From Sediminispirochaeta bajacaliforniensis DSM 16054 (GTDB taxonomy: Bacteria > Spirochaetota > Spirochaetia > DSM-16054 > Sediminispirochaetaceae): a stretch of DNA of 64,000 nt. The first letter of the stretch is position 1. Every line of letters starts with the position of its first letter. The translations under genes and the position numbers were made by a program. Below, in pieces: positions 27,963 to 43,150 of this stretch. The notes under the pieces are model-generated. The model saw nothing but the letters and a program-made list of their open reading frames with translations. It made no database searches and was not told the origin of the DNA. The stretch covers positions 1 through 64,000 of the forward strand of contig NZ_KB899409.1 in NCBI RefSeq assembly GCF_000378205.1. Reading direction: 5' to 3'.

Positions 27963-28000
27963 TTGCCTATCCCTTCGCTTTATAGTAATTTTCATATATG
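27963..28000 (+). promoter_or_regulatory. Candidate leaderless-type promoter of tlpA
   Basis: TTGCCT (27963-27968), a 17-base spacer and TAATTT (27986-27991) end 6 bases before the ATG at 27998. There is no Shine-Dalgarno. The -35 is identical to that of the CheW-CZB gene; the -10 is weak. A better-looking TATAGT at 27981 lacks a spaced -35. Confidence 0.4.
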
Positions 28001-28582
28001 AAAAAGCATATAAGTTCTTTGTATCCCATGCTTCTTTTGTCGGTTTTTGCTCTTACCCCCGGACTTTTCGCTCAAGAAAGCGGTGACGAGAGTTATTCCA
28101 TGTCAAAGGGGCAAGCCGCCCTTTATCAACTCGGTTTTGATATCCCCAGGGGCAGCCTGGCCGCACCGCCCTTTTCCCTGACGACCATCGACGGCGAGAC
28201 GGCAAGCCTTTCGGCAGCAAAGGGAAAGCTGCTGCTCCTCAATCTTTGGGCGACATGGTGTCCCCCCTGTCGCCAGGAGATGCCCTCCATGCAAAAAATC
28301 TATGAGCGTTTTGCCGGAAAAAACTTTGAAATGTACGCCGTCGCAGCCCCTACTCCCCCGAGGGAAACCCTCGAACTGATTACAGCACATGTTGCCGATA
28401 ACGGATTCACCTTCCCCGTTCCCATCGACAGCGAATACCAGGTCAATTCAATATACGGAACGGGGAGCATTCCCACTACCTGGATCATCGATGAAAAGGG
28501 AAACATCATCGCCAGGCTGGTAGGTGCAACCGATTGGTCATCACCTGAGATCATCGGGGCTCTTGAGATGCTCATTCCATAG
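27998..28582 (+). CDS. TlpA/ResA-type thiol-disulfide oxidoreductase
   Basis: The 194-residue protein has a signal peptide (MKKHISSLYPMLLLSVFALTPGLFAQ) and a thioredoxin fold of the TlpA/ResA/AhpC-TSA kind. The active site is WCPPC (C88, C91) in NLWATWCPPCRQEMP, followed by the cis-Pro loop SIPTTWIID. It should reduce disulfides in the periplasm, for example in apocytochromes or other exported proteins, using electrons from the DsbD encoded 15 bases downstream. It lacks a ribosome-binding site and may be leaderless. Confidence 0.9.
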   Translation: MKKHISSLYPMLLLSVFALTPGLFAQESGDESYSMSKGQAALYQLGFDIPRGSLAAPPFSLTTIDGETASLSAAKGKLLLLNLWATWCPPCRQEMPSMQKIYERFAGKNFEMYAVAAPTPPRETLELITAHVADNGFTFPVPIDSEYQVNSIYGTGSIPTTWIIDEKGNIIARLVGATDWSSPEIIGALEMLIP

Positions 28583-28596
28583 GAAAGGAGGCGGCG

Positions 28597-30381
28597 GTGT
28601 ACCGACTAAGAAGAGTTCCGGCCCTGTTGTTGTTCCTGCTTGTCGTGCTGCTTCCCCTTGCCGCCGCCAAGCCCCGAATCGTCGATGTGGGGGTCTTTGG
28701 GCAGAGAGATTCGCAGCGCATCACCCTCTCGCTGGAGATTCCCGAAGGGTATCATCAAAGCTTCAACGAAGATTTCTTCTTTTTTGAACTGGTCGATCCA
28801 GCGGGGGCGGATCTCGGTAGGATCGATTATCCGAAGGGGACCGATACCGAAACAGGACCTGCCTACTACGGAACGATATCCCTAAGCGCTCCACTGCCCC
28901 CCGAAAAATTCCGGTCCACTTCTGCACAGACGGGAAAAATCAGGCTCCATTATCAGCTTTGTGACGAGGCCGGCACCTGTTTCCTGCCCGGCACCGTCGA
29001 AGCATCCTTTTCCATACCTGCACCCGACACGGGCTCTTTTTCAAGCAGCATCGGAGGGTTCAAGGGAGAGAAGGGCATCTGGCTCATGCTCGCCTTCGCC
29101 TTGCTCGGTGGGATTCTCCTCAACATAATGCCCTGCGTCTTTCCCATTCTCTCGATCAGGGCCCTCAACCTTGTCAAACAGAGCAGTAATGACAAGAAGC
29201 TGTTGCGTTTCGGCTCCCTGCTCTACGGTGCCGGAGTCCTGGCCTCGTTTTTGCTCCTCGCTCTGGTGGTCATCATCCTGAAACAGTCGGGAGAACTAGT
29301 CGGCTGGGGCTTTCAGTTTCAGAATCCGGCTTTTGTGCTGGCTCTCAGCGCTATTCTTCTGGTATTTGCCCTCAGCTTATTCGACCTCTACCTCTTTCAG
29401 CCGCCGATATTCGGGTCGAAACTGGCCGCCGCCGGATCGAGGGGACTTGTCGGTTCCTTTGTAAACGGGCTCGTTGCCGTAATCCTTGCAACCCCCTGCA
29501 CCGCACCATTTCTTGGCAGCGCTCTGGGCTTTGCCTTTAGCCAGCCGCCGCTTTTAATCATCTTCTTTTTTCTCACCATTGGGATAGGCTTTGCCCTCCC
29601 ATTTGTTTTGCTCGGTTTCATTCCCCGGATCATCCATCGGATACCGAAACCGGGGGCATGGATGGAGCTCTTCAAAGAAACGATGGGTCTGGTACTGATT
29701 GCCACCGCTCTCTACTTCTTTGCTATCTTCGGACGTCAGACAGGAGCGCAGGCAATGATCGGGGCCCTTGCCTTTCTCCTTTCCCTTGCATCGGCAGCCT
29801 GGCTCTACGGAAAACTTGCAAAACCGACCTCATCGAAACGGCAACGTTGGCTTTCGCTTCTTTTGTTCGTTATACTTTCCTCAGCGGCCGCTACGATCTT
29901 CATCGATCCATCCTCCTGGAAGTCCCAGGAAGGAAACGCAAGTGAAACAGCAATGGCGGAGCATGGCGGCGAAGGGGTCGAACGTATTGCCTATTCATCC
30001 GAAAGGGTGGAAACGATGATTCGTTCCCGGCAGCCCTTTCTCCTTGTCTTCTCCGCCCAGTGGTGCAGCGTCTGCAAGCTAAACGACCGTCGGATTTTTG
30101 CCACCGAACGGGGAAAAGAGCTTTTTCAACGCTACGGTATCCAGATGGTCTACGGAGATTACACCAATGCCGATCCTGTGATAGGCGAAGCGATAAAAGA
30201 CCTTGGCAGAGCCGGCGTTCCGGTGTATGCTTTTTATCGGCCGGCGGCCGACAAACCTATTCTGCTGCCGGAACTACTTACCTTCGAGAAACTCGAGGAA
30301 CTTTTCTCGAAGGCAGACCATGAGGCGGAAACCGGAGAAACTCCGACCGCTCAGCCGCTGGGAGATGCCCTTTTTTTCTAA
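28597..30381 (+). CDS. dsbD: Thiol:disulfide interchange protein DsbD
   Basis: DsbD carries electrons from cytoplasmic thioredoxin across the membrane to periplasmic thiol proteins. All three modules are present in the 594 residues. After a signal peptide comes the N-terminal immunoglobulin-like domain with C122 and C128. The eight-helix membrane domain has C180 (NIMPCVFP) and C301 (ATPCTAPF). The C-terminal thioredoxin domain has C490-x2-C493 (WCSVCK). The start is GTG at 28597, set by AAGGAGG 5 bases upstream. Its natural client is the TlpA-like protein encoded just before it. Confidence 0.94.
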   Translation: MYRLRRVPALLLFLLVVLLPLAAAKPRIVDVGVFGQRDSQRITLSLEIPEGYHQSFNEDFFFFELVDPAGADLGRIDYPKGTDTETGPAYYGTISLSAPLPPEKFRSTSAQTGKIRLHYQLCDEAGTCFLPGTVEASFSIPAPDTGSFSSSIGGFKGEKGIWLMLAFALLGGILLNIMPCVFPILSIRALNLVKQSSNDKKLLRFGSLLYGAGVLASFLLLALVVIILKQSGELVGWGFQFQNPAFVLALSAILLVFALSLFDLYLFQPPIFGSKLAAAGSRGLVGSFVNGLVAVILATPCTAPFLGSALGFAFSQPPLLIIFFFLTIGIGFALPFVLLGFIPRIIHRIPKPGAWMELFKETMGLVLIATALYFFAIFGRQTGAQAMIGALAFLLSLASAAWLYGKLAKPTSSKRQRWLSLLLFVILSSAAATIFIDPSSWKSQEGNASETAMAEHGGEGVERIAYSSERVETMIRSRQPFLLVFSAQWCSVCKLNDRRIFATERGKELFQRYGIQMVYGDYTNADPVIGEAIKDLGRAGVPVYAFYRPAADKPILLPELLTFEKLEELFSKADHEAETGETPTAQPLGDALFF

Positions 30382-32322: not shown

Positions 32323-33070
32323 CGTTCGTCTCTTTTCGGCAGATGCCGATGCACGCTTTTTAGCCCGCCCCAACCGCTTTACGGTTGAGGCGGAGCTGCG
32401 GGAGAGAGGTGCGGACAGCAAGGTGGCGGTTCACTGTGCAAACCCCGGCAGGCTCAAGGAGCTTCTTTATCCCGGTGCCCAACTCATCCTCGAAAGGGCA
32501 AAGGGAGGGGCGAAACGAAAGACCAAATGGAGTCTGGCCGCCGTCCGGTTCCAGGGAAAGATCATCCCGTTAATCAGCGCCAGGGCTAACCTGGCGGTGC
32601 GGAGCCTCTGCCTTCCGAGGCTCTTTCCCCGCGCCCTTTCCATTGAAGCGGAAAAAACCCTTCCTCAGCAGCCGGGCAGCCGTTTCGACTTTCTCGTGAA
32701 AACGGAACAGGCCCTCTATCCTATCGAGGTCAAGGCCTGCACCCTCTTAAAACCCTTTAAACAGGCAAGCTTTCCCGATGCGCCGACGCAACGGGGAAGG
32801 CGGCATGTGGAAGAGTTGACGGCCCTCGCCGCTTGCAGGGATGGGACGGGGAAGGAATATCGGCCTAAGGTGATTATCGCAGTCTTCCATGCCGATGCCG
32901 AAACATTCTCTCCAAATGCAGAAACCGACCCCGATTTCGCCAAAGCCCTCTGCCGTGCCAGGAATCTGATCGATATAAGAATACCGCTTTTCCAGACCGA
33001 TGAGGAGGGGATAGCCAGAGTGATACGGGAAACCATTCCATTTGTCCCCGCCCCGAATCACAGCCGGTAA
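32297..33070 (+). CDS. sfsA: SfsA-family DNA-binding/sugar fermentation stimulation protein
   Basis: The 257-residue protein shows the SfsA family blocks HCANPGRL near 46-53, SRFDFLV near 128, PIEVKACTLL near 141 and FPDAPTQRGRRHVEEL near 158-173. SfsA has an N-terminal OB fold and a C-terminal nuclease-like fold with these acidic and lysine residues; its cellular role is poorly understood. The ATG lies inside the 3' end of the acyl-CoA synthetase gene, a 26-base overlap in another frame. Its own 3' end overlaps the convergent zinc-ribbon gene by 13 bases. Confidence 0.92.
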   Translation: MKSIPSSDSVRLFSADADARFLARPNRFTVEAELRERGADSKVAVHCANPGRLKELLYPGAQLILERAKGGAKRKTKWSLAAVRFQGKIIPLISARANLAVRSLCLPRLFPRALSIEAEKTLPQQPGSRFDFLVKTEQALYPIEVKACTLLKPFKQASFPDAPTQRGRRHVEELTALAACRDGTGKEYRPKVIIAVFHADAETFSPNAETDPDFAKALCRARNLIDIRIPLFQTDEEGIARVIRETIPFVPAPNHSR

Positions 33071-33378
33071 TAGAGAAAGGTCAATAAGCCCAAGGCTCCC
33101 AAAAGTATGATGGTAATAAGAAGATAAAACCAGGCAGGAAGCGAACGGGGAGACGAGCCCTGCGAAACCTGCTCAAGCGAAGACTCTCTACCTTTTTGGG
33201 ACGGGGCAAGATAGCCGCAGGATGGGCAGCCCTTTACAAAGAGAGAGGAAGGCCCTGCATAACCGCAGCGGGGACACTGGACCCCATAGAAACGACTGCC
33301 GCAGGATGGGCAGCGGCTGCTTCCCGCATCCACCTCGGCTCCACAACTTTCACAGTAGAACTTCGCCTTTTTCGTCAT
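33058..33378 (-). CDS. Double zinc-ribbon membrane protein
   Basis: The 106-residue protein has two to three CxxC pairs (CESCG, CPSCG, CPRCGYAG, CPSCGYLAP) in the first 60 residues. A Ser-rich linker and one C-terminal membrane helix (WFYLLITIILLGALGLLTFLYY) follow, so the ribbons should face the cytoplasm. The ATG at 33378 lies 4 bases after the SpoIIE gene stop with AGGTGTG upstream, so the two are coupled. A longer frame reads back into that gene and is rejected. It may recruit a protein or RNA to the membrane; the link to the phosphatase is positional. Confidence 0.75.
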   Translation of the reverse strand: MTKKAKFYCESCGAEVDAGSSRCPSCGSRFYGVQCPRCGYAGPSSLFVKGCPSCGYLAPSQKGRESSLEQVSQGSSPRSLPAWFYLLITIILLGALGLLTFLYYRL

Positions 33379-33382
33379 TGCT

Positions 33383-36300
33383 TCACACCTTTTCAATACC
33401 AAGGACAGTCAGGTCGTCGTACTGCTCATCCTCTTTCAAAGCGCCGTAGGTGACATAGGTATCGTTTCGGCCGATTTCCTTCCCGCCGAAATAGTGTTCG
33501 AATTGCACGAAACAACATTGCAGGAAATCATCGATTTTGATATCGACATTGACAACATCACTCTCGCCTGCCTTCGGATCGGGATTGAGCCTGAAGATTT
33601 TTTCAACCGCGACCAGGGCAAGTACGGCATCCTCTATGCCGGAACCGCAGGAGGCAAAATCGAATTCGAGTACCTCGCCGGGAATTGGGTTGTGATACTT
33701 CTCCAGTCGGTAACGTCCATTCCGGTAGAAGGTATTGATGATTTCATGGATCCGGGGGATTCCCAACTCCTCGTTATCGTTGCCGACCGGGTGGGTATCA
33801 TGCAGCTGCCCCTGCTCCAGCCCTGGTTCTTTGCAGGTGACGACTTCGAATCGTTCATTCCGAAACTTTCTCTGTGCCTCTTCAAGACCGTCGGTAAAGA
33901 GAAAAAGCTTGTCTCCTGATCTTAGGACATGGGGTACCTTGGAAAAACCGCCTTTCATATCGATCAGATCATTCGGGAAAACCCCTGCCGCAGGCGCGGC
34001 GGGAAGGGTCATCATCTCCATGGACTCCTTTTTTCCCTGATAAAGGTGAACCTGATTATCCCCGGCATTGCAGAAAACGGTTTTTCCCGTCGCCCCGTCG
34101 ATAAGTACGACGATCAAGGCCGCAAACCGTCCCTGGAAGCCCCGCTCCTGCACAAGACTATTAATACTGGCCACCAGCTGATCGATGGCCGGTTCCTGCT
34201 TACGGGGAGCGATTCCCTTCGAGGAGGCGACGGATAGAATCCTCTCCTGCGCCCGTTTCCACTCGTTGAGAAAGTTCCTGAAAATCGTCGCAACCTCGAC
34301 CATGATCAAAGAGGCGGGAACACCCTTTCCCGCTATATCACACTTGATGACGGCGTAAAGATTTCCGGGTAGCTGCATATAGTCGAAGTAATCGCCGGAA
34401 ACACCCTTTGCCCCCTCATAGTATCCAAAAAAGTTGAGTCCGGGATAGTTGTCCGAGGCCGTGGTTTTTTTATTGCCTCTGGAGTCCTGTTCCAGGGGAA
34501 TAAACATTTTCTGGACCTCTTTTCCAATGGTGAGGTCCTTTTTCGCACTCTCCGCCTTTACCAGTCCGCGGGTCATCTCATTGATGGTCTCCGCAAGTTG
34601 GAAAAGCTCGTCCCGGGTTTTTACAACAATGACATGGTCCTTCAGTTTTTCCTTATCGTCGGTTTCGCTGATGACCTCGACGCCCCGGACTAAGGTTCGA
34701 ATCGGGATAATGATGATGGCAGCAAGAAGCAGGGAACCCAGAATCCCGAGAAGAACGGCACCGAGGGCAATAACGGCAGTCTGCCGAACCAATCTGTCGC
34801 GGCTGGCAATGATTTCACCGCGAATGCGTTCGGTGGTGATACCGAGCCGGACCAGGCCGTGGTAGTAAACTCCCGGACGATTCGAATCCTGATAGACAAT
34901 GGGTCGATAAAAGGTATATTCGCTGGGTCCGGAAAGGATGGTTTCGGGATCGAAAGTGGGCACAGAAGAGACCTCGCTCCCGATATCTTGCAGCTTTGCC
35001 TCTATCTCCTCACTAACCGAAGCTATGGAATCCTGCAGCTCCTGGAGCAGCTGGGCCGTATCCTCGTCCCGCCGCGTGACCAATCTGGTGGCTGCATCTC
35101 TGGCCTTTTCCTGCAACTCTGCCAATTCCTGGCTAAGGGCCCCAACCTCGGCCTCCGCTCTGTCATCGATACGATCTCTAAGTTCGTCGATAAAGGGAGA
35201 AACACCATCTTTGATCCGGGCAGCCCCGCGCCGAAAGGAGTTCTGCCCTCCTCCGGTATCTTCATCGGTCAATTTTTCGGCAATAGAGGGGTCGTTCGTC
35301 GCCCACAGGTAATCGAAATAATCATTATCGGTATCGGGAACCTGCGAACTGCGTACCCCTGTAATGGTGGCATAAAGCGCATCCTCGGCCGCCCGACTCT
35401 GTGCCGGAAGTCGACCAAGCTCTATGGTATTCTCCTCGGGAAGATATTTTCCCGCACCCGATGCAAGGCTCTCCACCAAAACCCTGGTACTTTGTAAAAG
35501 GCCGTCGGCAAGACTCCTCTGCTGCGTATCAATCATAAAGCGGCCCATCGGCAGGGCGACAAGCAAAACAACAATCAGGACCAGAGATGTAACAAGCAGG
35601 GCAAATTTTCTTCTTAACCCCTTTCGCTCTTTAGCCATGGTGATAATCCTCTCTTTTCGTTCTTCATGCGGCAGGCGGCGCTGCTCCAGCAAGGCGACGG
35701 CTTCGTTCCGGAGCAGGTTACCCTCCTGGACCAGGCGAAGGATACGCCAGGAAACGAAGAGAAAACTTGCTCCTAAAAGAACCATCACAAGGACAAAGGC
35801 TGCGGTTCCCCCCGATAGGGTGGAAAAAGGAAGCCGGATAAGATGCAGAGCGGGACGCTGGAGAATCGTAAAATCTCCAAACTTTACGGTACCGGTGTCG
35901 GAGAAGCTTAGCGTTCTTCGGGTAAGGTATAAGCCCCTGGTCGGGTGGATGACCCCGAGGTGATACTCGCCACCGTCGATATCCTCGATCACCGGTCCCT
36001 CGATTCGTCGATCCGAAACCACTCGATACGCGGCGCTTTCCGCATCAAAGCTGTAATCGTAGGGCGGTTTTCCGTCTCTATCAAGGAAAACGGTTCCGAT
36101 ATTGCCCCCTACCGAGAAGCCACGACCTACAATCGATATGAGATAGCGGCCCAGGTCATCTTCCCGAAGGGAGATATCCGTAACATAGGTGACCGGAATA
36201 TACTTATTCAATCTCATCCGAAAGGAAACAGCCTCACCGACATTTCCTACCTGATCCACAGGCGCCACGGTAACGGCCCACAAACCGTTATCGATATTTC

Positions 36301-38056
36301 GAAAGCTTAGGGAAGGAACCCGCAGCCGGATACTGTCTGAAGGGGTACGGGCAGACAGGGCCCCGGGAGCCCCTGCATAATCGGCAGACGCAAGATACTG
36401 AAGTCGGTATGCGTAACCCGCAACATCCGTTTCTGCAGGAGGCTCCCAAGCGATGCTTCCGGTATTGGAAGGAAGGAAACCGTCGCCGTCGAGCTCGGGA
36501 TCAATAAAGCGAACGGGAGAGGGGGGTGTGGTATCACGAACAGCCTCAATGGTCATGCTTTTCGACCAGTTGCCAGCGTAATCTCTTGCCGCAATATGAA
36601 AAAACCAGGGTCCGTCCTCCTTCAAAGAGGCTGAAAAACGACGTTCTTCCCTGCGCAACAACATCAACCTATGGGGTGGATCACCCTCCGGATCTCGGTC
36701 GACGGAATAGCTGAAACCGCTAATACCCGAAGAGTCATCGGGAAGGTTCCAGGATACGATGAAACTATCTTGTTTGGTGGGACGCCCCTGCCGGAAATTG
36801 AGGGGACGGACTTGGGGAGGTGAAGCGCTTTTATCCGGGGCAAGGAAGGCGATACGCGATCTGTTTGCAAAGCTGTTCTCCCAGAGCAGGGAGAGCTCTC
36901 CGGAACGGAACATGGGAACGGGAAAGGCGCTGACACCGTTCATGACGCTCACATCTTCCGCATCCCAGGAAACGCCTCGTTTGAGGGCGAAAAAGATACG
37001 GTTATCCCCCTTGCTATCGTCGAACCAGAAGAGGACCCTTTCTCCCGCCGTCTCGGTAATGACCGGATTCCTACAGACGTTGCTGCCCTGGGAAATTCGC
37101 TCGGGTACCCCCACCACAGCCCCTTCGGGGCTCAATTCGGCGTAGAAGATCTGGGGAGGGGAGCTTCCCGAGTATCTGCGCTCCCATGCCACAGCAAGCC
37201 CCTTCCCATTACCGTACAGGTAGGGGCGTTGATTATCGTAGAGGCTGGGATCGCCATTGTCGGAAATGGATCGATCCTCAAAATCGCTTATCAGCCGAGG
37301 CGAACTCCAGCTCGCCCCTCCGTCGCTACTTGATACGAGATAGAGCTGATAAAAACGGCTTTCCTGAGGAGAGGCCTGAAAGGCTACATAATCCTTTCCT
37401 CCGTAATGGGCAAGCGAGGGCAAATAGACGTATGCAAGATTGCTTCCTTTTGCAAGGGACGTGAACTCACTCCAATTTCGTCCATCCCGACTCACGGAAA
37501 AAGCGGCCCCAAGACTCACCTCACTGGTAAGGGCTTGGAGCCCTTCTGAGATGAGAGGGCTGGTAACGAATAAAAAGAGGGAACCTGTAGAAGATAAAAA
37601 GAGGCGGGGAGCAACAACAGTCCCCTCTTCCGATCCGATTCCAGGCTCGGCAACCTTTACAAAGCTTGCTCCGTCGTCACCGGAACGGTAGATCGCGATG
37701 GTATTGCCGGAGGTGGCAAGAGCGATAAAGATATGTCCGGCCTTATCGATCACCATCGAAGCAACGGGAACCTTTTCTCCTACGTAGCGAAAGGGTCCGA
37801 GCACCCGCTCGTGGCGTTCCCACGTATTCCTGTAGCTCATCAGCGAAATATAGAGATCACGATAACCATCGGAGGGCTCACCATATTCATGCCAGAGAAA
37901 GGCAGAAAGTTCGCCATTTGAACTACTTCGGACAAAGGAGGCGTTCGCATCAACCAAAATCTCGGGACGTTCCCAGTAGAATTGCTGAGCCTCTACCTGA
38001 AGGGCAGCGAAGAGCACAAGCACCAGGCAAAAGAGCAAAGGGGCTCGGCGGCACAT
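33383..38056 (-). CDS. Giant membrane SpoIIE/PP2C-type phosphatase receptor (1557 residues)
   Basis: The domains in order start with a signal peptide (1-24) and a sialidase-like beta-propeller with Asp-box motifs (about 28-410, e.g. SSSDGGASW near 244-251). Two fibronectin-III-like domains (about 425-615, TTPPSPV near 510) and another beta domain (to about 740) follow. Next are membrane helix 1 (753-775), a cytoplasmic linker and helix 2 (819-845). A second extracytoplasmic sensor with a coiled coil (about 955-1030) leads to helix 3 (1093-1120), HAMP (to about 1170) and a PP2C/SpoIIE phosphatase (about 1205-1557). Phosphatase motifs are SGDYFDY, DIAGKGVPASL, FTDGLEEA and YDDLTVLGI. Such phosphatases dephosphorylate anti-anti-sigma STAS proteins in partner-switching. 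ATG (38056) overlaps the stop of the upstream repeat protein by one base; GTG at 38059 is possible. No STAS or anti-sigma gene is nearby. Confidence 0.92.
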   Translation of the reverse strand: MCRRAPLLFCLVLVLFAALQVEAQQFYWERPEILVDANASFVRSSSNGELSAFLWHEYGEPSDGYRDLYISLMSYRNTWERHERVLGPFRYVGEKVPVASMVIDKAGHIFIALATSGNTIAIYRSGDDGASFVKVAEPGIGSEEGTVVAPRLFLSSTGSLFLFVTSPLISEGLQALTSEVSLGAAFSVSRDGRNWSEFTSLAKGSNLAYVYLPSLAHYGGKDYVAFQASPQESRFYQLYLVSSSDGGASWSSPRLISDFEDRSISDNGDPSLYDNQRPYLYGNGKGLAVAWERRYSGSSPPQIFYAELSPEGAVVGVPERISQGSNVCRNPVITETAGERVLFWFDDSKGDNRIFFALKRGVSWDAEDVSVMNGVSAFPVPMFRSGELSLLWENSFANRSRIAFLAPDKSASPPQVRPLNFRQGRPTKQDSFIVSWNLPDDSSGISGFSYSVDRDPEGDPPHRLMLLRREERRFSASLKEDGPWFFHIAARDYAGNWSKSMTIEAVRDTTPPSPVRFIDPELDGDGFLPSNTGSIAWEPPAETDVAGYAYRLQYLASADYAGAPGALSARTPSDSIRLRVPSLSFRNIDNGLWAVTVAPVDQVGNVGEAVSFRMRLNKYIPVTYVTDISLREDDLGRYLISIVGRGFSVGGNIGTVFLDRDGKPPYDYSFDAESAAYRVVSDRRIEGPVIEDIDGGEYHLGVIHPTRGLYLTRRTLSFSDTGTVKFGDFTILQRPALHLIRLPFSTLSGGTAAFVLVMVLLGASFLFVSWRILRLVQEGNLLRNEAVALLEQRRLPHEERKERIITMAKERKGLRRKFALLVTSLVLIVVLLVALPMGRFMIDTQQRSLADGLLQSTRVLVESLASGAGKYLPEENTIELGRLPAQSRAAEDALYATITGVRSSQVPDTDNDYFDYLWATNDPSIAEKLTDEDTGGGQNSFRRGAARIKDGVSPFIDELRDRIDDRAEAEVGALSQELAELQEKARDAATRLVTRRDEDTAQLLQELQDSIASVSEEIEAKLQDIGSEVSSVPTFDPETILSGPSEYTFYRPIVYQDSNRPGVYYHGLVRLGITTERIRGEIIASRDRLVRQTAVIALGAVLLGILGSLLLAAIIIIPIRTLVRGVEVISETDDKEKLKDHVIVVKTRDELFQLAETINEMTRGLVKAESAKKDLTIGKEVQKMFIPLEQDSRGNKKTTASDNYPGLNFFGYYEGAKGVSGDYFDYMQLPGNLYAVIKCDIAGKGVPASLIMVEVATIFRNFLNEWKRAQERILSVASSKGIAPRKQEPAIDQLVASINSLVQERGFQGRFAALIVVLIDGATGKTVFCNAGDNQVHLYQGKKESMEMMTLPAAPAAGVFPNDLIDMKGGFSKVPHVLRSGDKLFLFTDGLEEAQRKFRNERFEVVTCKEPGLEQGQLHDTHPVGNDNEELGIPRIHEIINTFYRNGRYRLEKYHNPIPGEVLEFDFASCGSGIEDAVLALVAVEKIFRLNPDPKAGESDVVNVDIKIDDFLQCCFVQFEHYFGGKEIGRNDTYVTYGALKEDEQYDDLTVLGIEKV

Positions 38057-41049
38057 CACAGGCGTGCCTCTATTCGCTTCTGAAGATCGAGGAGTTTCGG
38101 ATTATTCCTGTTCTTCGTGTTGTTCATCAACTGCTCCACAATAACGCTTGCCTCAAAATAGCGCCCTTCTATGAAGAGATCCTCCGCCTGCTTAAGCTGT
38201 TGCTGCGCGATACTGGAAAGAACAACGGTAACAGCCCCGCCGCTTCCGGCTTGTATCCTGTCCTTGAGAACAATGGCATCATTATAATCGGGATTAAGCT
38301 TAATCGCCTCGTTCAAATAGGCAAGAGCCACAGGAAATTGCGCCCGTACATCGTTTTCCACAATCTTCTCGGCATCGCCGTAAAGGTCCCTGGCCCTGGC
38401 AAGCTTCGCCCGATCAGGAGGAGGTTGCCTGATACCCGTTGCAATTTCCGCATCGTATAGGGCCTTTTCCATTCCGGGGAAATCGGGCCGAATTGCTTCA
38501 AGGACCTTGAGTTCCCGATACGCATCTTCCGGCGTCGAATTCAATTGGCGCCTTGCATTGTTGAACCGACTGGAAAAAATAGCATCAAAGTCATCAGGCT
38601 CGGTGTACTGCAAGATCTGAAGATAGAGAATACTGGCATCTTTGTTGTTTGGAAAGGGCTCCTTCACGTATTCGATCTTCCGTTCGGCCTCGGAAAATCG
38701 CGCAAGCGCTTTATCTCGGTCGCCGGAGGTGAAAAGTCGCTTGCCATCGAGAAAATCCTTGCGGGCGAGATTGAGCATCTGAGTCATTTCGGGATAAAGG
38801 GGATCGGCAACCACAAGTTCCACACCACTTGTGGTATCCAGAGCACGCTTGACCCGTTCGAGCCAGCTGTTGACTTCAGGTTCCTCTTCGGTATTGGTTT
38901 GCAGCCAGCGCGCCTGGGCCCTTTGAAAGGTCTGCTGGGCCTCGATAAATTTTTCCTGAAAGAAGAGATCCCGCCCCTGGTTGATTAACGCACGTACCTG
39001 CCGAACAATCTGCCGATTCTGTGCCGCAATGATCCGGTCTGCAAGATCCGGAATGTCCTTATCGATGCGACTCCTGACCTGCTGATCTTCACGATAGGTA
39101 AGACTTTGGGCCAAAGCCGTGCCTGCCTGCTCCAACTTGTCCCTTGCCTGCTCAAAGCTCTCGTCGTCGAGGCGGCTCTCCGCTTCACTGAAGCGAAGCT
39201 CTCCCTCGGCAAGGGCAAGATCGGCCTGTCGGTTTAACGCTTCCCCCTCTGTAAGGAGCGTTGTTCCGGTGTTGCGAAGCGAAATGATATCGGCACGCAT
39301 CGTATCTGTCGAAGAGAGCGATTCTTTAATCGCAGGAGAAGCGACAATCGCATCGCTTTCGGCGGAAAGGGAGGCGGAGATGGAGGCGATATCCCGATCA
39401 AGGGCGTCCAGGGTCGGCAGGGTCTCTTCAATGATTTTGATCCCCTGATCAGGGCGCCGCACTACTATGGGGTCGGTCCCCTCGACAATTGTCTCCTGGC
39501 TGCCCTCGATAAGAGCCTGTGCTTTTTCAATGCTGTTTTGCCTCTCCGAAAGACGGCTGCTCAGTTGAGCAATGAGAATCGAAGCGCGACGCGAAACCGC
39601 CTCAAGTTCCATGGATGAACTCTGGCCGAATGCCTCGTCCACGGCGCTCAAAAACTGCCCGGCAAGGGCCTTGGGGCGGTCCACGGTGATGGGGGCTTCG
39701 TACCCATCAAGGGAGGAAGAGAGGCTTTTCACGGGATCGCCAACGGCTTCGATCCTTGTCTGAAGATCGAGGATGCGGTCTCTGCGCAGGGCCAGGGCCT
39801 CGGTATCAAGGCTTTCCCATGCTTCGTTTTCGCCTCCCAGCTCAGCCTTCAAAGCAGCAAGTTCCGTAAACTGACCACTGGCGCTTTCCAGAATCCGAGA
39901 AAAAAGAAATTGCTCCGTGATCTCCCTACCGCTCTCCGCCAGATTCTCCATGGCAGGAGCGGTCCCTCCGTTTTCAAAAGCAATCAGCTGCTCCACCATC
40001 TGTGTATATTCACCTGCAGATCGAAAAAAGCGGGCAGCCACATCCTCTCTTCCTTGATGGTATGCGGCTACCCCCGACTGGTACTCCCTTTCGGCAAGGT
40101 CACCGATTCCTTCGAAGAGAGAGGTGTAGGAACCGTCGGAAAAGCGCAGAATGGTTCCGGCAATTCCTTCGGGGGCTTCGGCATCGGCCCTCCCTCTTGC
40201 AAGAACCCTCAATGTGGAAAGATAAGGAACATCGTTTTCATCTTCGCTCTGCACCGAGGCTTTGAGTTTTTCGAGCTCCTCAGCAGCGTAGAGGATCCCC
40301 CTTCGCTGCTCGTCTACAGCCAGCATAGCCGCTCCGAACGTGTCGATGGTATTGGTAAGATCCACTTTATTTTCCTGCCGAAGAGCTTCCATAACATGAT
40401 CGTAAAAGGATGATGCCTCGGGACGATCAAGAAGGAAGGCATCGGAAAGATTCTCCAGGCTCTGACGAAGCGTGCGAACGTGCTCAAAAACATCGGCACC
40501 GTAATCCTTCTCCAAAAAAAGTTTTTGATGAAGATCGAAACCCGATCGGTAGAGCGCAACGGCCTGATCGTACTCCTTTTTTTCCAGGAGTTGCCATGCC
40601 TCCTCGATAATCCGACGGAACTTTCTATCGTTGACGGCAAACACAATCGAAGCACGCATTTGAGCAAAGGCCTGGACTGCAGCCGGATTGGGATCACTGT
40701 CGAGAGCCTCCATCTTTGTAATCAAATCATACGCATGATCTTCATCGATCTCACCGCCATCCGGAGGATCCAGAACCTCTATCAACTCGGCATAATAGCG
40801 GTTGTACTGGTCACGAATGGCCCTCACCTGCTGGAGGAGTTCTTCAGCCTGATCAAAACGATCAGGATCCTCCTTCATCATCTGGGTAAGGACCAGGATG
40901 GCATCGTTGTAGCGCTGCTCGGCCATAAGCTGACGAGCCGTATCGACAGGGTCCTCCCGTTGCCCTCCACCAAAGAGCCAAACCGGCAGCAAAAGGAAAA
41001 AGATGAGAAAAATATATGTTTTCAAAGGCCGCGTACGTACTGGCTCCAT
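38056..41049 (-). CDS. Large periplasmic TPR/coiled-coil repeat protein (997 residues)
   Basis: From the ATG at 41049, preceded by GCGGAGC, the protein has a basic N-terminus and signal sequence (TYIFLIFFLLLPVWLFGGG). It then consists almost wholly of helices with TPR-like units, e.g. AEQRYNDAILVLTQMMKEDPD near 43-63, EKKEYDQAVALYRSGF near 150 and QEKFIEAQQTFQRAQARW near 685. Long coiled-coil stretches separate these (about 250-640). It is probably a periplasmic scaffold anchored at the inner membrane. The stop overlaps the SpoIIE receptor start (TGATG), so the two are made together and may bind each other. An upstream GTG at 41085 is less likely. Confidence 0.83.
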   Translation of the reverse strand: MEPVRTRPLKTYIFLIFFLLLPVWLFGGGQREDPVDTARQLMAEQRYNDAILVLTQMMKEDPDRFDQAEELLQQVRAIRDQYNRYYAELIEVLDPPDGGEIDEDHAYDLITKMEALDSDPNPAAVQAFAQMRASIVFAVNDRKFRRIIEEAWQLLEKKEYDQAVALYRSGFDLHQKLFLEKDYGADVFEHVRTLRQSLENLSDAFLLDRPEASSFYDHVMEALRQENKVDLTNTIDTFGAAMLAVDEQRRGILYAAEELEKLKASVQSEDENDVPYLSTLRVLARGRADAEAPEGIAGTILRFSDGSYTSLFEGIGDLAEREYQSGVAAYHQGREDVAARFFRSAGEYTQMVEQLIAFENGGTAPAMENLAESGREITEQFLFSRILESASGQFTELAALKAELGGENEAWESLDTEALALRRDRILDLQTRIEAVGDPVKSLSSSLDGYEAPITVDRPKALAGQFLSAVDEAFGQSSSMELEAVSRRASILIAQLSSRLSERQNSIEKAQALIEGSQETIVEGTDPIVVRRPDQGIKIIEETLPTLDALDRDIASISASLSAESDAIVASPAIKESLSSTDTMRADIISLRNTGTTLLTEGEALNRQADLALAEGELRFSEAESRLDDESFEQARDKLEQAGTALAQSLTYREDQQVRSRIDKDIPDLADRIIAAQNRQIVRQVRALINQGRDLFFQEKFIEAQQTFQRAQARWLQTNTEEEPEVNSWLERVKRALDTTSGVELVVADPLYPEMTQMLNLARKDFLDGKRLFTSGDRDKALARFSEAERKIEYVKEPFPNNKDASILYLQILQYTEPDDFDAIFSSRFNNARRQLNSTPEDAYRELKVLEAIRPDFPGMEKALYDAEIATGIRQPPPDRAKLARARDLYGDAEKIVENDVRAQFPVALAYLNEAIKLNPDYNDAIVLKDRIQAGSGGAVTVVLSSIAQQQLKQAEDLFIEGRYFEASVIVEQLMNNTKNRNNPKLLDLQKRIEARL

Positions 41050-41139
41050 TTGCTCCGCTACTCTGTTTCTATCCCACTGTATCACATTATCGGCAGGATA
41101 ATTACTGGATAAACCAGAAGGAAGATAGTATAGTATAAG

Positions 41140-42384
41140 ATGATGAATATTCGGAATAGACCGTTATTTTTACTACTCATTCTGTTTGTACCGGCGATTC
41201 TTTTCGCCGATCTTTCGGAATTCTACAGCGGCTATTCCTCCTTTGCCGATTCGGATTTCATCACCGATTCCAACACCGGCCAGAGTGCCTTCACCACCCT
41301 TCTTATCCCTTTCGGAGGACTCTATGAGGGGATGGGAACTGCCTTCACCGCCGTTGCCAGCGATGTCGGTTTCCTGGAGGCAAATCCTGCAGGCAGCAGT
41401 CGTATCGATGTTACACAGCTATCCCTTATGCACAACGACTGGATCGCGGATACCAATATCGAATCAGCCGCCTTTACCTCCAGAAAGGATAACTTTGGGT
41501 TCGGCTTCGGAGGGAAATTTCTCTACGTCCCCTTCACCGCCTACAACGACTGGGGAGACCGGGCCGGAAGCGGCTACTATTCGGAAACGGTACTCTACGC
41601 AAACGCTTCCTACAATGCCTTCCGCTCCTATGATTTCTCGGGCCTTTCCGTGGGAGCCACGCTCAAGGGGGCATACAGAAATGTACCGGAATCGGTAGCC
41701 TCGGGTCAGTCGGCCTTTGCGGGGATGATCGACCTTGGAGCCCTCACCAGATTTAACTTTTTGAAGCCGTATCCATCGCGGGACAAAAACTTTTCTCTCG
41801 GCCTTGCGGTACGAAACATCGGTTTCGCCAGCCTCGACGATAATCTTCCGTCTAACGCCAGCCTCGGCTTTGCCTATTCTCCCCTCAGGCCGCTTCTCGT
41901 AAGCTTTGATTACACCTTTCCTTTTTCTCTGACCCTTCCGGCCGAACAGTGGGAACATCCCTACTTTGCGACCGGAGCGAAAGTCGCCGTCACCGATAAT
42001 TTTGCCATGCAAACAGGCTTTACCCACAGGGGATCAAATCCGCGATTCACCCTCGGGGGCTCGGTGGATCTGAATGATTTGACCATTATTGCAAACTACA
42101 CCCTCGATCTTACCACCCAGCTCAGCTCTCTCGACCGCTTCAGTCTTCAGGCGACAATGGCATTAGGCGATGATGGGCGACAAATGACAGCCCAACGCAT
42201 CGACGAGTACTACATCGCCGGTCTCGAAGCCTATGCCCAGGGCGATTTTGAGCGGGCAATCCAATATTGGGAAGCCGTTCTCGACCTCGATCCCACCTAC
42301 AGACCCGCTCATGAAAACCTCGATTTGGCACAAAGAAGCCTCGATCTGCTGTTCAATATGCGAAAGCTCAATACCGTAGAATAA
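41140..42384 (+). CDS. UPF0164-family outer-membrane barrel with C-terminal TPR
   Basis: The 414-residue protein has a signal peptide (ending LFA) and a FadL/PorV-like barrel. The family block LYEGMGTAFTAVASDVGFL with EANPAGS near residues 62-86 matches UPF0164, a spirochaete family with several paralogues in Treponema pallidum. After the barrel (about 350 residues) one TPR-like unit remains (YIAGLEAYAQGDFERAIQYW...). This should be periplasmic and could contact the repeat protein encoded divergently. ATG at 41140 or 41143 is possible; no well-spaced Shine-Dalgarno is present. The stop directly abuts the stop of the convergent gene. Confidence 0.88.
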   Translation: MMNIRNRPLFLLLILFVPAILFADLSEFYSGYSSFADSDFITDSNTGQSAFTTLLIPFGGLYEGMGTAFTAVASDVGFLEANPAGSSRIDVTQLSLMHNDWIADTNIESAAFTSRKDNFGFGFGGKFLYVPFTAYNDWGDRAGSGYYSETVLYANASYNAFRSYDFSGLSVGATLKGAYRNVPESVASGQSAFAGMIDLGALTRFNFLKPYPSRDKNFSLGLAVRNIGFASLDDNLPSNASLGFAYSPLRPLLVSFDYTFPFSLTLPAEQWEHPYFATGAKVAVTDNFAMQTGFTHRGSNPRFTLGGSVDLNDLTIIANYTLDLTTQLSSLDRFSLQATMALGDDGRQMTAQRIDEYYIAGLEAYAQGDFERAIQYWEAVLDLDPTYRPAHENLDLAQRSLDLLFNMRKLNTVE

Positions 42385-43110
42385 TTAACGCTTCAAGGCC
42401 CGATACACACCGAAGAGAGGGAGATCCAACTTATTGTTTAATTTGACCGATTGCCGCTGCTTGCGTTTTCGCAACGCCTTTTCCTGCTTCCGATAGGCGC
42501 GGCTGGCAAAACGGCGGCGGAGATAGGAAACCAGCTGATCGAGCCGCTCTTTCTCTCCCGTAACGGAAAACTCCACGGCATCGGCCAGGGATTCGGCAAG
42601 TTGCCGGGTATCTTCCGCCTCAAGGCGAAGAAGGAGTTCCTCGGCTTCCTCGACTAAAGAATCATGCTCGAAATAGATTTCGTCGACCCGTTCACGAAGG
42701 GCGATACGTTTGGCAGTCGCAGCCTTGGAGCCGGAATCGCGTCGGGAAAGCAGATAGTAAACAAAAAAAGAGGCCGCAAGGGAACCTCCCAACTCATCAA
42801 TCATGGGGATGGGGTCCCGGATAACCAGGGAGAGGAAAAAGTAGACAACAAGAAAAAGCAAACTTGAAATCAAAAAACGAGGGATAAAACGCTTTTCCGA
42901 AATCCAGTTTTTCACCGCAAGTTCAATTAAGCGATAAAGCTCGTTTCTCAGCAGTGTCACGCTTTCCGGACGCGGTTCTCTTCCATAACGACCCGCGATA
43001 ACCGTATTGGCATCAAGCTTGAGTAATGTATCAGGATCATCAAAGGGATGGAGAAAGAGAGGAACTCCCCCCAACCTCTGCAAATGGAAGATGTTAATCT
43101 CTGTTTTCAT
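42385..43110 (-). CDS. Two-helix membrane protein of unknown function
   Basis: The ATG at 43110 follows GGAGGGG and starts a 241-residue protein. About 75 N-terminal residues may be cytoplasmic, including a Pro/Asp-rich stretch (FLHPFDDPDTLLKLD). Two membrane helices follow (FLISSLLFLVVYFFLSLVI and GGSLAASFFVYYLLS), then a charged coiled-coil tail with a strongly basic end (RKQEKALRKRKQRQ). No family is recognised. It is the last gene of a three-gene minus-strand operon with another membrane protein and a TIR-like/ankyrin protein. Its stop abuts that of the UPF0164 gene. Confidence 0.75.
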   Translation of the reverse strand: MKTEINIFHLQRLGGVPLFLHPFDDPDTLLKLDANTVIAGRYGREPRPESVTLLRNELYRLIELAVKNWISEKRFIPRFLISSLLFLVVYFFLSLVIRDPIPMIDELGGSLAASFFVYYLLSRRDSGSKAATAKRIALRERVDEIYFEHDSLVEEAEELLLRLEAEDTRQLAESLADAVEFSVTGEKERLDQLVSYLRRRFASRAYRKQEKALRKRKQRQSVKLNNKLDLPLFGVYRALKR

Positions 43111-43150
43111 AACCCCTCCGAGAAAAAGATAGTAGGCGAGCGCCTCCACG

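Follow-up and report, generated by a model that had tools for sequence, protein, structure and literature searches.

A barrel, a periplasmic scaffold and a two-sensor SpoIIE phosphatase: a candidate envelope-state signalling module in spirochaetes

Spirochaetes are not known to possess the classical stress systems by which enterobacteria guard the outer membrane, and little has been established about how they watch over their envelope. The locus we describe here bears on that question. It lies in a 64,000-nucleotide stretch of Sediminispirochaeta bajacaliforniensis DSM 16054 (contig NZ_KB899409.1, positions 1 to 64,000; hereafter the window), where the gene for a UPF0164 outer-membrane barrel on the plus strand stands head to head with a translationally coupled pair on the minus strand, encoding a secreted helical scaffold and a giant receptor that ends in a predicted phosphatase. 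On balance, we favour the view that these proteins make up an envelope-state signalling module: a barrel–scaffold–receptor arm, and a phosphatase that would act on a STAS protein with a zinc ribbon encoded elsewhere in the genome. A sequence-only reading of the window had already placed the three genes in one divergent locus, with coordinates that we confirm, and had suggested that they sense the state of the outer membrane or of secretion and set a partner-switching output. Our analysis drew on signal-peptide and hydropathy predictions, Pfam and NCBIfam models at their cut-offs, AlphaFold2 models, fold searches and profile searches of genomes. The features of the locus are these:

33383..38059, minus strand: receptor phosphatase, 1558 residues (Pfam, hydropathy, AlphaFold2, orthologues)
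35816..37987, minus strand: its periplasmic ectodomain, residues ~25-748, with a propeller, domains of FN3 type and a further Ig-like domain, the third (model, fold search, short receptors without it)
33386..34462, minus strand: its cytoplasmic PP2C/SpoIIE catalytic part, residues ~1200-1558 (Pfam, alignment)
33434..33874, minus strand: ~147-residue insert in the PP2C domain, residues ~1396-1542 (in class orthologues, absent from distant-class receptors)
38056..41085, minus strand: all-helical periplasmic scaffold, an open reading frame of 1009 residues from GTG, or 997 from the ATG at codon 13 (AlphaFold2, signal peptide)
41086..41139, no strand: divergent control region of 54 bp, from called start to called start, shared by scaffold and barrel (coordinates, relatives)
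41140..42384, plus strand: UPF0164/FadL-like outer-membrane barrel, 414 residues (PF03687, orthologues)
42205..42381, plus strand: TPR tail at the C terminus of the barrel, residues 356-414 (Pfam; 85 of 87 orthologues examined)

The scaffold stop and the receptor start overlap at CTGTGATG, by 4 nt with a GTG start and by 1 nt with an ATG start. Among relatives an overlap of 4 nt is seen most often (79 of 118 pairs), and the 1-nt form occurs in 8 of the 118. The one-base overlap originally reported thus holds with the ATG start and gives way to four bases with the GTG; the 997 residues reported for the scaffold are correct counting from its ATG.

These genes travel together. We searched 296 genomes of the phylum with the scaffold, the non-catalytic part of the receptor and PF03687; the class to which the window belongs accounts for 117 of them, counted from the genome listing, in which 2 of the 296 do not appear. 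The scaffold is found in 54 of the 117, and a full-length, ectodomain-bearing receptor in the same 54 (54/54). UPF0164 barrels occur in 51 class genomes, every one of them among the 54 that have the pair, and in none of the other 63 (Fisher p 5e-30, phylogeny ignored). Losses of the triad are scattered across families and genera. We also compared loci, 40 regions from the genome set and 80 named loci (two contigs are in both collections), the latter from Sediminispirochaeta, Gracilinema, Breznakiella, Treponema and many uncultured Spirochaetia. Scaffold and receptor lie on one strand in 118 loci, and the divergent barrel stands beside them in 85 of the 91 with enough flank. The genes flanking the triad differ between families, so its conservation is not merely that of a frozen neighbourhood. 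That scaffold and receptor are a functional unit we regard as close to certain, and the barrel very probably belongs to it. The sequence-only reading had looked to co-occurrence and synteny to decide the matter; within the class both are there, and an independent barrel is not. In other classes the pair is present and the barrel unlinked, on another contig or at a distant site.

The receptor has the domains first proposed for it, from propeller to phosphatase. After a signal peptide come the propeller and FN3/Ig-like domains, a first transmembrane segment (TM1, ~751-769), a cytoplasmic linker, TM2 (~819-837), a Cache-like domain interrupted in the model by a coiled coil, TM3 (~1102-1120), HAMP (25.0 bits, equal to the cut-off) and SpoIIE/PP2C (PF07228, 76.8 bits against a cut-off of 25). 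The AlphaFold2 model of the sensor part (pLDDT 87.8, 100 orthologous rows) supports propeller, FN3/Ig-like domains and coiled-coil-bearing second sensor alike. Counted from alignment and profile, as were the TPR tails, the PP2C aspartates D1241, D1390, D1548 and D1549 are present in 118 of 118 orthologues and D1223 in 117, one row being gapped there. With PF07228 matched and its metal-binding and catalytic aspartates conserved, the receptor is a predicted SpoIIE/PPM serine-threonine phosphatase. In class receptors the TDG and DD motifs stand a median of 160 residues apart because of an insert of ~147 residues, which is missing from a distant-class receptor (L157) whose SpoIIE match runs to position 191 of 192. 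Searched by sequence against solved structures, the receptor found no match. By fold, the ectodomain propeller lies near GH145-type hydrolases and sialidases, the GH145 type being closest among single propellers, and its matches include the propeller-type sensor BT4663; sialidase-type propellers have Asp boxes, of which the window receptor has two matches.

Nature has taken this receptor apart more than once. Six class genomes (G206, G212, G259, G262, G276 and G288) match only its C-terminal part. Their receptors, of 741-900 residues, start at or after TM1 and continue with the Cache-like domain, HAMP and insert-bearing phosphatase; what is missing is exactly the propeller/FN3 ectodomain. Profile searches of these six genomes found neither scaffold nor barrel, the weak matches being generic TPR stretches, and among the class genomes sampled the ectodomain is never kept without the scaffold. 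We rejected the idea that the short receptors are old paralogues. In a tree of the shared part they fall in several places inside the full-length clade, which requires four or more changes of form; no genome listed for SpoIIE has a second insert-bearing receptor; and the short-receptor loci L148, L149 and L152 adjoin the same GH57-type and 230-residue genes as many full-length loci. Truncation is therefore preferred over paralogy. The pattern shows barrel, scaffold and ectodomain lost as a unit, with what remains of the receptor kept as a predicted membrane phosphatase without its arm. Such repeated loss amounts to a natural experiment that separates two sensing inputs.

The scaffold is modelled as a long all-helical solenoid (pLDDT 91.9, 88 orthologous rows), and its signal peptide, like those of its relatives, is of the SPase-I type with no lipobox cysteine. 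A fold search found partial likeness to TPR proteins and no global match. It had been described as almost all TPR and coiled coil. The helical solenoid is borne out by the model, together with a Pfam-clear TPR protein (146.4 bits, L157) at the corresponding position in a distant class; on the window scaffold itself no TPR model reaches its cut-off (best E 0.018 in the Pfam scan). The barrel matches PF03687 at 150.5 bits against a cut-off of 21.4, and the TPR unit claimed for its C terminus is there (E 8e-6), although at 26.0 bits it sits just below the TPR_2 cut-off of 27. The tail is kept in 85 of 87 orthologues. UPF0164 proteins have been modelled as 14-stranded FadL-like importers (PMC8407342).

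The module is kept even in a strongly reduced genome. G056, a Treponema pallidum-like genome of 1.14 Mb, has at one locus (L044) a receptor of 1533 residues, a scaffold of 1127 and UPF0164 barrels, in the same order as the window. Its UPF0164 genes lie at 934.7-938.5 kb; in T. pallidum, tp0856-tp0859 are placed at ~933.0-937.2 kb (PMC8407342). The receptor, scaffold and barrels of L044 correspond to TP0854, TP0855 and TP0856/0858/0859, which bears out the earlier statement that T. pallidum has an RsbU-like gene near its UPF0164 genes. TP0854 is described as a SpoIIE phosphatase that is expressed, folds like a sialidase and may be one (PMC5956850, PMC10600179), TP0855 as an abundant putative outer-membrane protein, and TP0858 as likewise abundant in the syphilis spirochaete (PMC11668736). 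TPR extensions are reported on three of five FadL-like proteins that are vaccine candidates, in a paper that mentions neither TP0854 nor TP0855 (PMC8407342). In the accessible portions of this literature TP0854, TP0855 and the FadL/UPF0164 proteins TP0856-TP0865 are listed separately, and we found nothing there that joins them into one system. We set aside the label of sialidase virulence factor that TP0854 has acquired: its ectodomain is part of a two-sensor receptor with a conserved phosphatase, and signalling is therefore the simpler reading. The ectodomain may have enzymatic activity besides. For TP0854 and TP0855, expressed and unexplained, the module offers a testable function; the barrels, current syphilis vaccine candidates, would be tied to a signalling pathway with a named candidate substrate.

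That candidate comes from distant relatives. There is no STAS or kinase gene at the window locus itself. In distant classes, however, single-strand operons (L154-L157) encode in order a TPR protein (615-725 residues), a propeller/Cache/HAMP/SpoIIE receptor (1158-1181 residues), a STAS protein and an RsbW-like HATPase_c_2 kinase (140 residues; 63.2 bits). A STAS gene adjoins the receptor in the distant-class genomes G003, G039, G068 and G028 and, by coordinates, also in G016, G047 and G061. The STAS antagonist model TIGR00377 matches above its cut-off, and in two of the L154-L157 operons the STAS protein bears a C-terminal zinc ribbon. Members of this STAS-zinc-ribbon family in the class of the window are 40-50% identical to the operon-linked STAS over the full length, zinc ribbon included, whereas other STAS proteins of the class reach 24-28% in the STAS domain alone. 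The family is present in 60 of 60 receptor-bearing class genomes (54 with triad or pair, 6 with short receptors) and in 7 of the 57 without a receptor; in G177, which has the triad, it supplies the sole STAS match. An SSTGIG motif is invariant at residues 66-71 of the alignment, and its phospho-site is assigned by motif resemblance. A family search located the genes in the window's own genome and in the T. pallidum-like one:

G000 C2:258287-258835, minus strand, and L159:2285-2842: STAS-zinc-ribbon gene of the window's own genome
L142:2366-2911: STAS-zinc-ribbon gene of the T. pallidum-like genome

Operon linkage in distant classes, presence in every receptor-bearing class genome, full-length identity and the SSTGIG motif together make the STAS-zinc-ribbon protein a candidate substrate, and we think it probably is what the receptor phosphatase acts upon. 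The partner-switching output first suggested gains support from the STAS protein and from the RsbW-like kinase encoded beside it in distant classes. No sigma factor was identified, and in the T. pallidum-like genome there is no recognisable RsbW or cognate anti-sigma, its HATPase_c_2 matches being weak and one of them resembling part of a histidine kinase; neither a sigma-factor output nor sensing of the state of secretion finds support. A different output comes into view in seven genomes of several families (G000, G177, G194, G130, G142, G063 and G096; L159:1200-2842, L160 and L162-L166), where a PspA/IM30 gene (163.6 bits in L160) follows the STAS-zinc-ribbon gene; a CesT/YbjN-like gene was detected between the two in five of the seven loci. 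This is guilt by association at one remove, and it hints at a possible envelope-stress output through PspA.

From gene content, order and coupling, co-retention, repeated loss of the arm, catalytic residues, and the linkage and co-occurrence of the STAS protein, we infer physical contacts, a direction of signalling, a stimulus, a substrate and an output, as follows. The barrel would sit in the outer membrane and offer its TPR tail to the periplasm, where the secreted scaffold would bridge that tail, or the outer-membrane side generally, to the receptor's propeller/FN3 ectodomain. Occupancy of this arm, or strain upon it, would combine with the Cache-like second sensor and pass through HAMP to set PP2C activity. 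The phosphatase would dephosphorylate the STAS-zinc-ribbon protein, its most likely target, which would in turn act on a downstream partner. In distant classes this would be the RsbW-like kinase; where the STAS gene heads a PspA operon, envelope-stress functions such as PspA are the probable output. A physical chain from barrel to scaffold to ectodomain is, as we see it, an even bet; envelope strain or a glycan or lipid ligand is a plausible stimulus. The fullest version, in which the TPR tail docks on the ~1000-residue solenoid that holds the propeller, and release or strain leads to STAS-zinc-ribbon dephosphorylation and so switches an envelope programme, of PspA type or another, in spirochaetes among which is the syphilis agent, we put forward tentatively, as a picture more likely wrong in some part than right in all.

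Several observations weigh against such a module. Three Treponemataceae-type genomes (G218, G236 and G290) keep scaffold and receptor with no barrel, as do loci L123 and L138, so the barrel is not indispensable. At L125 (9326-9914) only fragments of scaffold and barrel accompany a full-length receptor, and at L114 (1-2674) a full-length receptor has no scaffold in the 2.6 kb upstream; decay or assembly error is possible in both. The two barrels closest to the scaffold in the T. pallidum-like genome are without the TPR tail that the third carries. The DNA encoding barrel, scaffold and ectodomain is contiguous, and each co-loss could thus be explained by a single deletion. As for the output, seven class genomes have the STAS-zinc-ribbon protein and no receptor, the STAS-zinc-ribbon gene is unlinked to the receptor locus in the window's class, where no dedicated kinase was identified, and PspA is not beside it in six Treponemataceae-type loci examined.

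Some of these facts would suit a smaller design, in which scaffold and receptor sense envelope glycans or peptidoglycan from the inner membrane and periplasm, and the barrel, which shares the divergent promoter, stands outside the physical chain as a co-regulated client or target gene. The pair is inseparable in 54 of 54 genomes while the barrel is missing from three, lies elsewhere in other classes and is on the opposite strand; the propeller, modelled closest to GH145 and sialidase folds, would be compatible with glycan binding. Against this, no barrel occurs among the 63 class genomes without the pair, its periplasmic TPR tail is almost universally conserved, and it is lost together with scaffold and ectodomain. 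We judge this design unlikely, if the most serious of the alternatives.

Two others strike us as improbable. Scaffold and barrel could form a structural or transport machine that imports or secretes a hydrophobic compound, with the phosphatase only tuning transporter expression in a local feedback. The FadL-like, 14-stranded importer models (PMC8407342) speak for this, as does the abundance of TP0855 and TP0858, more than one would expect of a pure sensor (PMC11668736), and feedback would suit a shared divergent promoter region; but the pair persists without the barrel, the receptor persists without either, and the conserved phosphatase domain at its cytoplasmic end goes with a STAS family whose genes are remote from that of the barrel. 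Much the same small chance attaches to the receptor having as its partner a second switch operon (another SpoIIE phosphatase, a STAS protein and a 180-residue RsbW) with a classical anti-sigma output. This RsbW is found in 51 of 54 triad genomes, and in G236 the operon lies ~3 kb from the scaffold gene. The operon, however, has a phosphatase of its own. Three triad genomes, among them the T. pallidum-like one, lack its RsbW, while 14 class genomes that lack the triad have it, and the STAS protein encoded next to the receptor in distant relatives is of another family; we rejected this second operon as the specific output.

The second switch cluster deserves a description in its own right. It is widespread in the class, with examples at L145:2260-6579 (G000 contig 4), where the phosphatase is on the opposite strand, L146:3309-5953 and L147:3947-6803. 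In the barrel-less, Treponema-type G236 it occupies L047:13892-16001, ~3 kb upstream of the scaffold gene, and in the T. pallidum-like genome an orphan STAS of its type survives at L144:5280-5651, the phosphatase and kinase neighbours gone. Around the triad in the window, a 114-residue double zinc-ribbon protein is encoded directly downstream of the receptor (33058-33402), with relatives near the receptor in ~30 loci. Beyond the barrel, at 42385-43149, lies a putative membrane protein of 254 residues without a Pfam family above cut-off, kept beside the barrel in 27 loci. At 27998-30381 a gene for an AhpC/TSA-type redoxin adjoins one for a DsbD-like thiol transporter. A promoter scan of the 54-bp divergent gap gave two weak consensus sites against 0.6 expected, which is uninformative on function.

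How does the module compare with what is known? One counterpart is TP0854/TP0855/TP0856-TP0865 of T. pallidum, the same locus in the same arrangement (L044). The barrel recalls PorV of type IX secretion, matching NF033709 at 65 bits, short of the cut-off of 90, and PorQ (NF033711) less closely, at 37.8 against 220; no type IX components were recognised among the neighbouring genes scanned, and we rejected membership of that system. The propeller and Ig-like domains, in one chain with a signalling output, resemble the periplasmic sensor of the Bacteroides hybrid two-component protein BT4663, although here a PP2C phosphatase takes the place of the histidine kinase as output and the propeller is of a sialidase/GH145-like kind. 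For the switch itself there are two precedents. The distant-class operons, with PP2C-type phosphatase, STAS antagonist and HATPase_c_2 kinase side by side, look like RsbU/RsbV/RsbW and SpoIIE/SpoIIAA/SpoIIAB; they differ in the trans-envelope arm and the zinc ribbon on the STAS protein, no sigma factor was identified, and the T. pallidum-like genome has no recognisable kinase. In SiaABC(D) of Pseudomonas aeruginosa (PMC7647112), a membrane HAMP-PP2C protein is opposed to a kinase on a threonine-phosphorylated, anti-sigma-antagonist-like protein. SiaA is the best NCBIfam match of the distant-class receptor, whose 84.8 bits fall well below the NF038263 equivalog cut-off of 700, and the window receptor has no match to this model at E 0.01. 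SiaA combines two membrane spans with HAMP and PP2C, and neither a propeller ectodomain, a periplasmic scaffold nor an outer-membrane barrel is described for it (PMC7647112). The output of SiaABC(D) is a diguanylate cyclase (PMC7647112), so partner switches can act without a sigma factor. Seen beside these relatives, the spirochaete system as a whole reads as a partner-switching phosphatase whose trans-envelope input is unusual.

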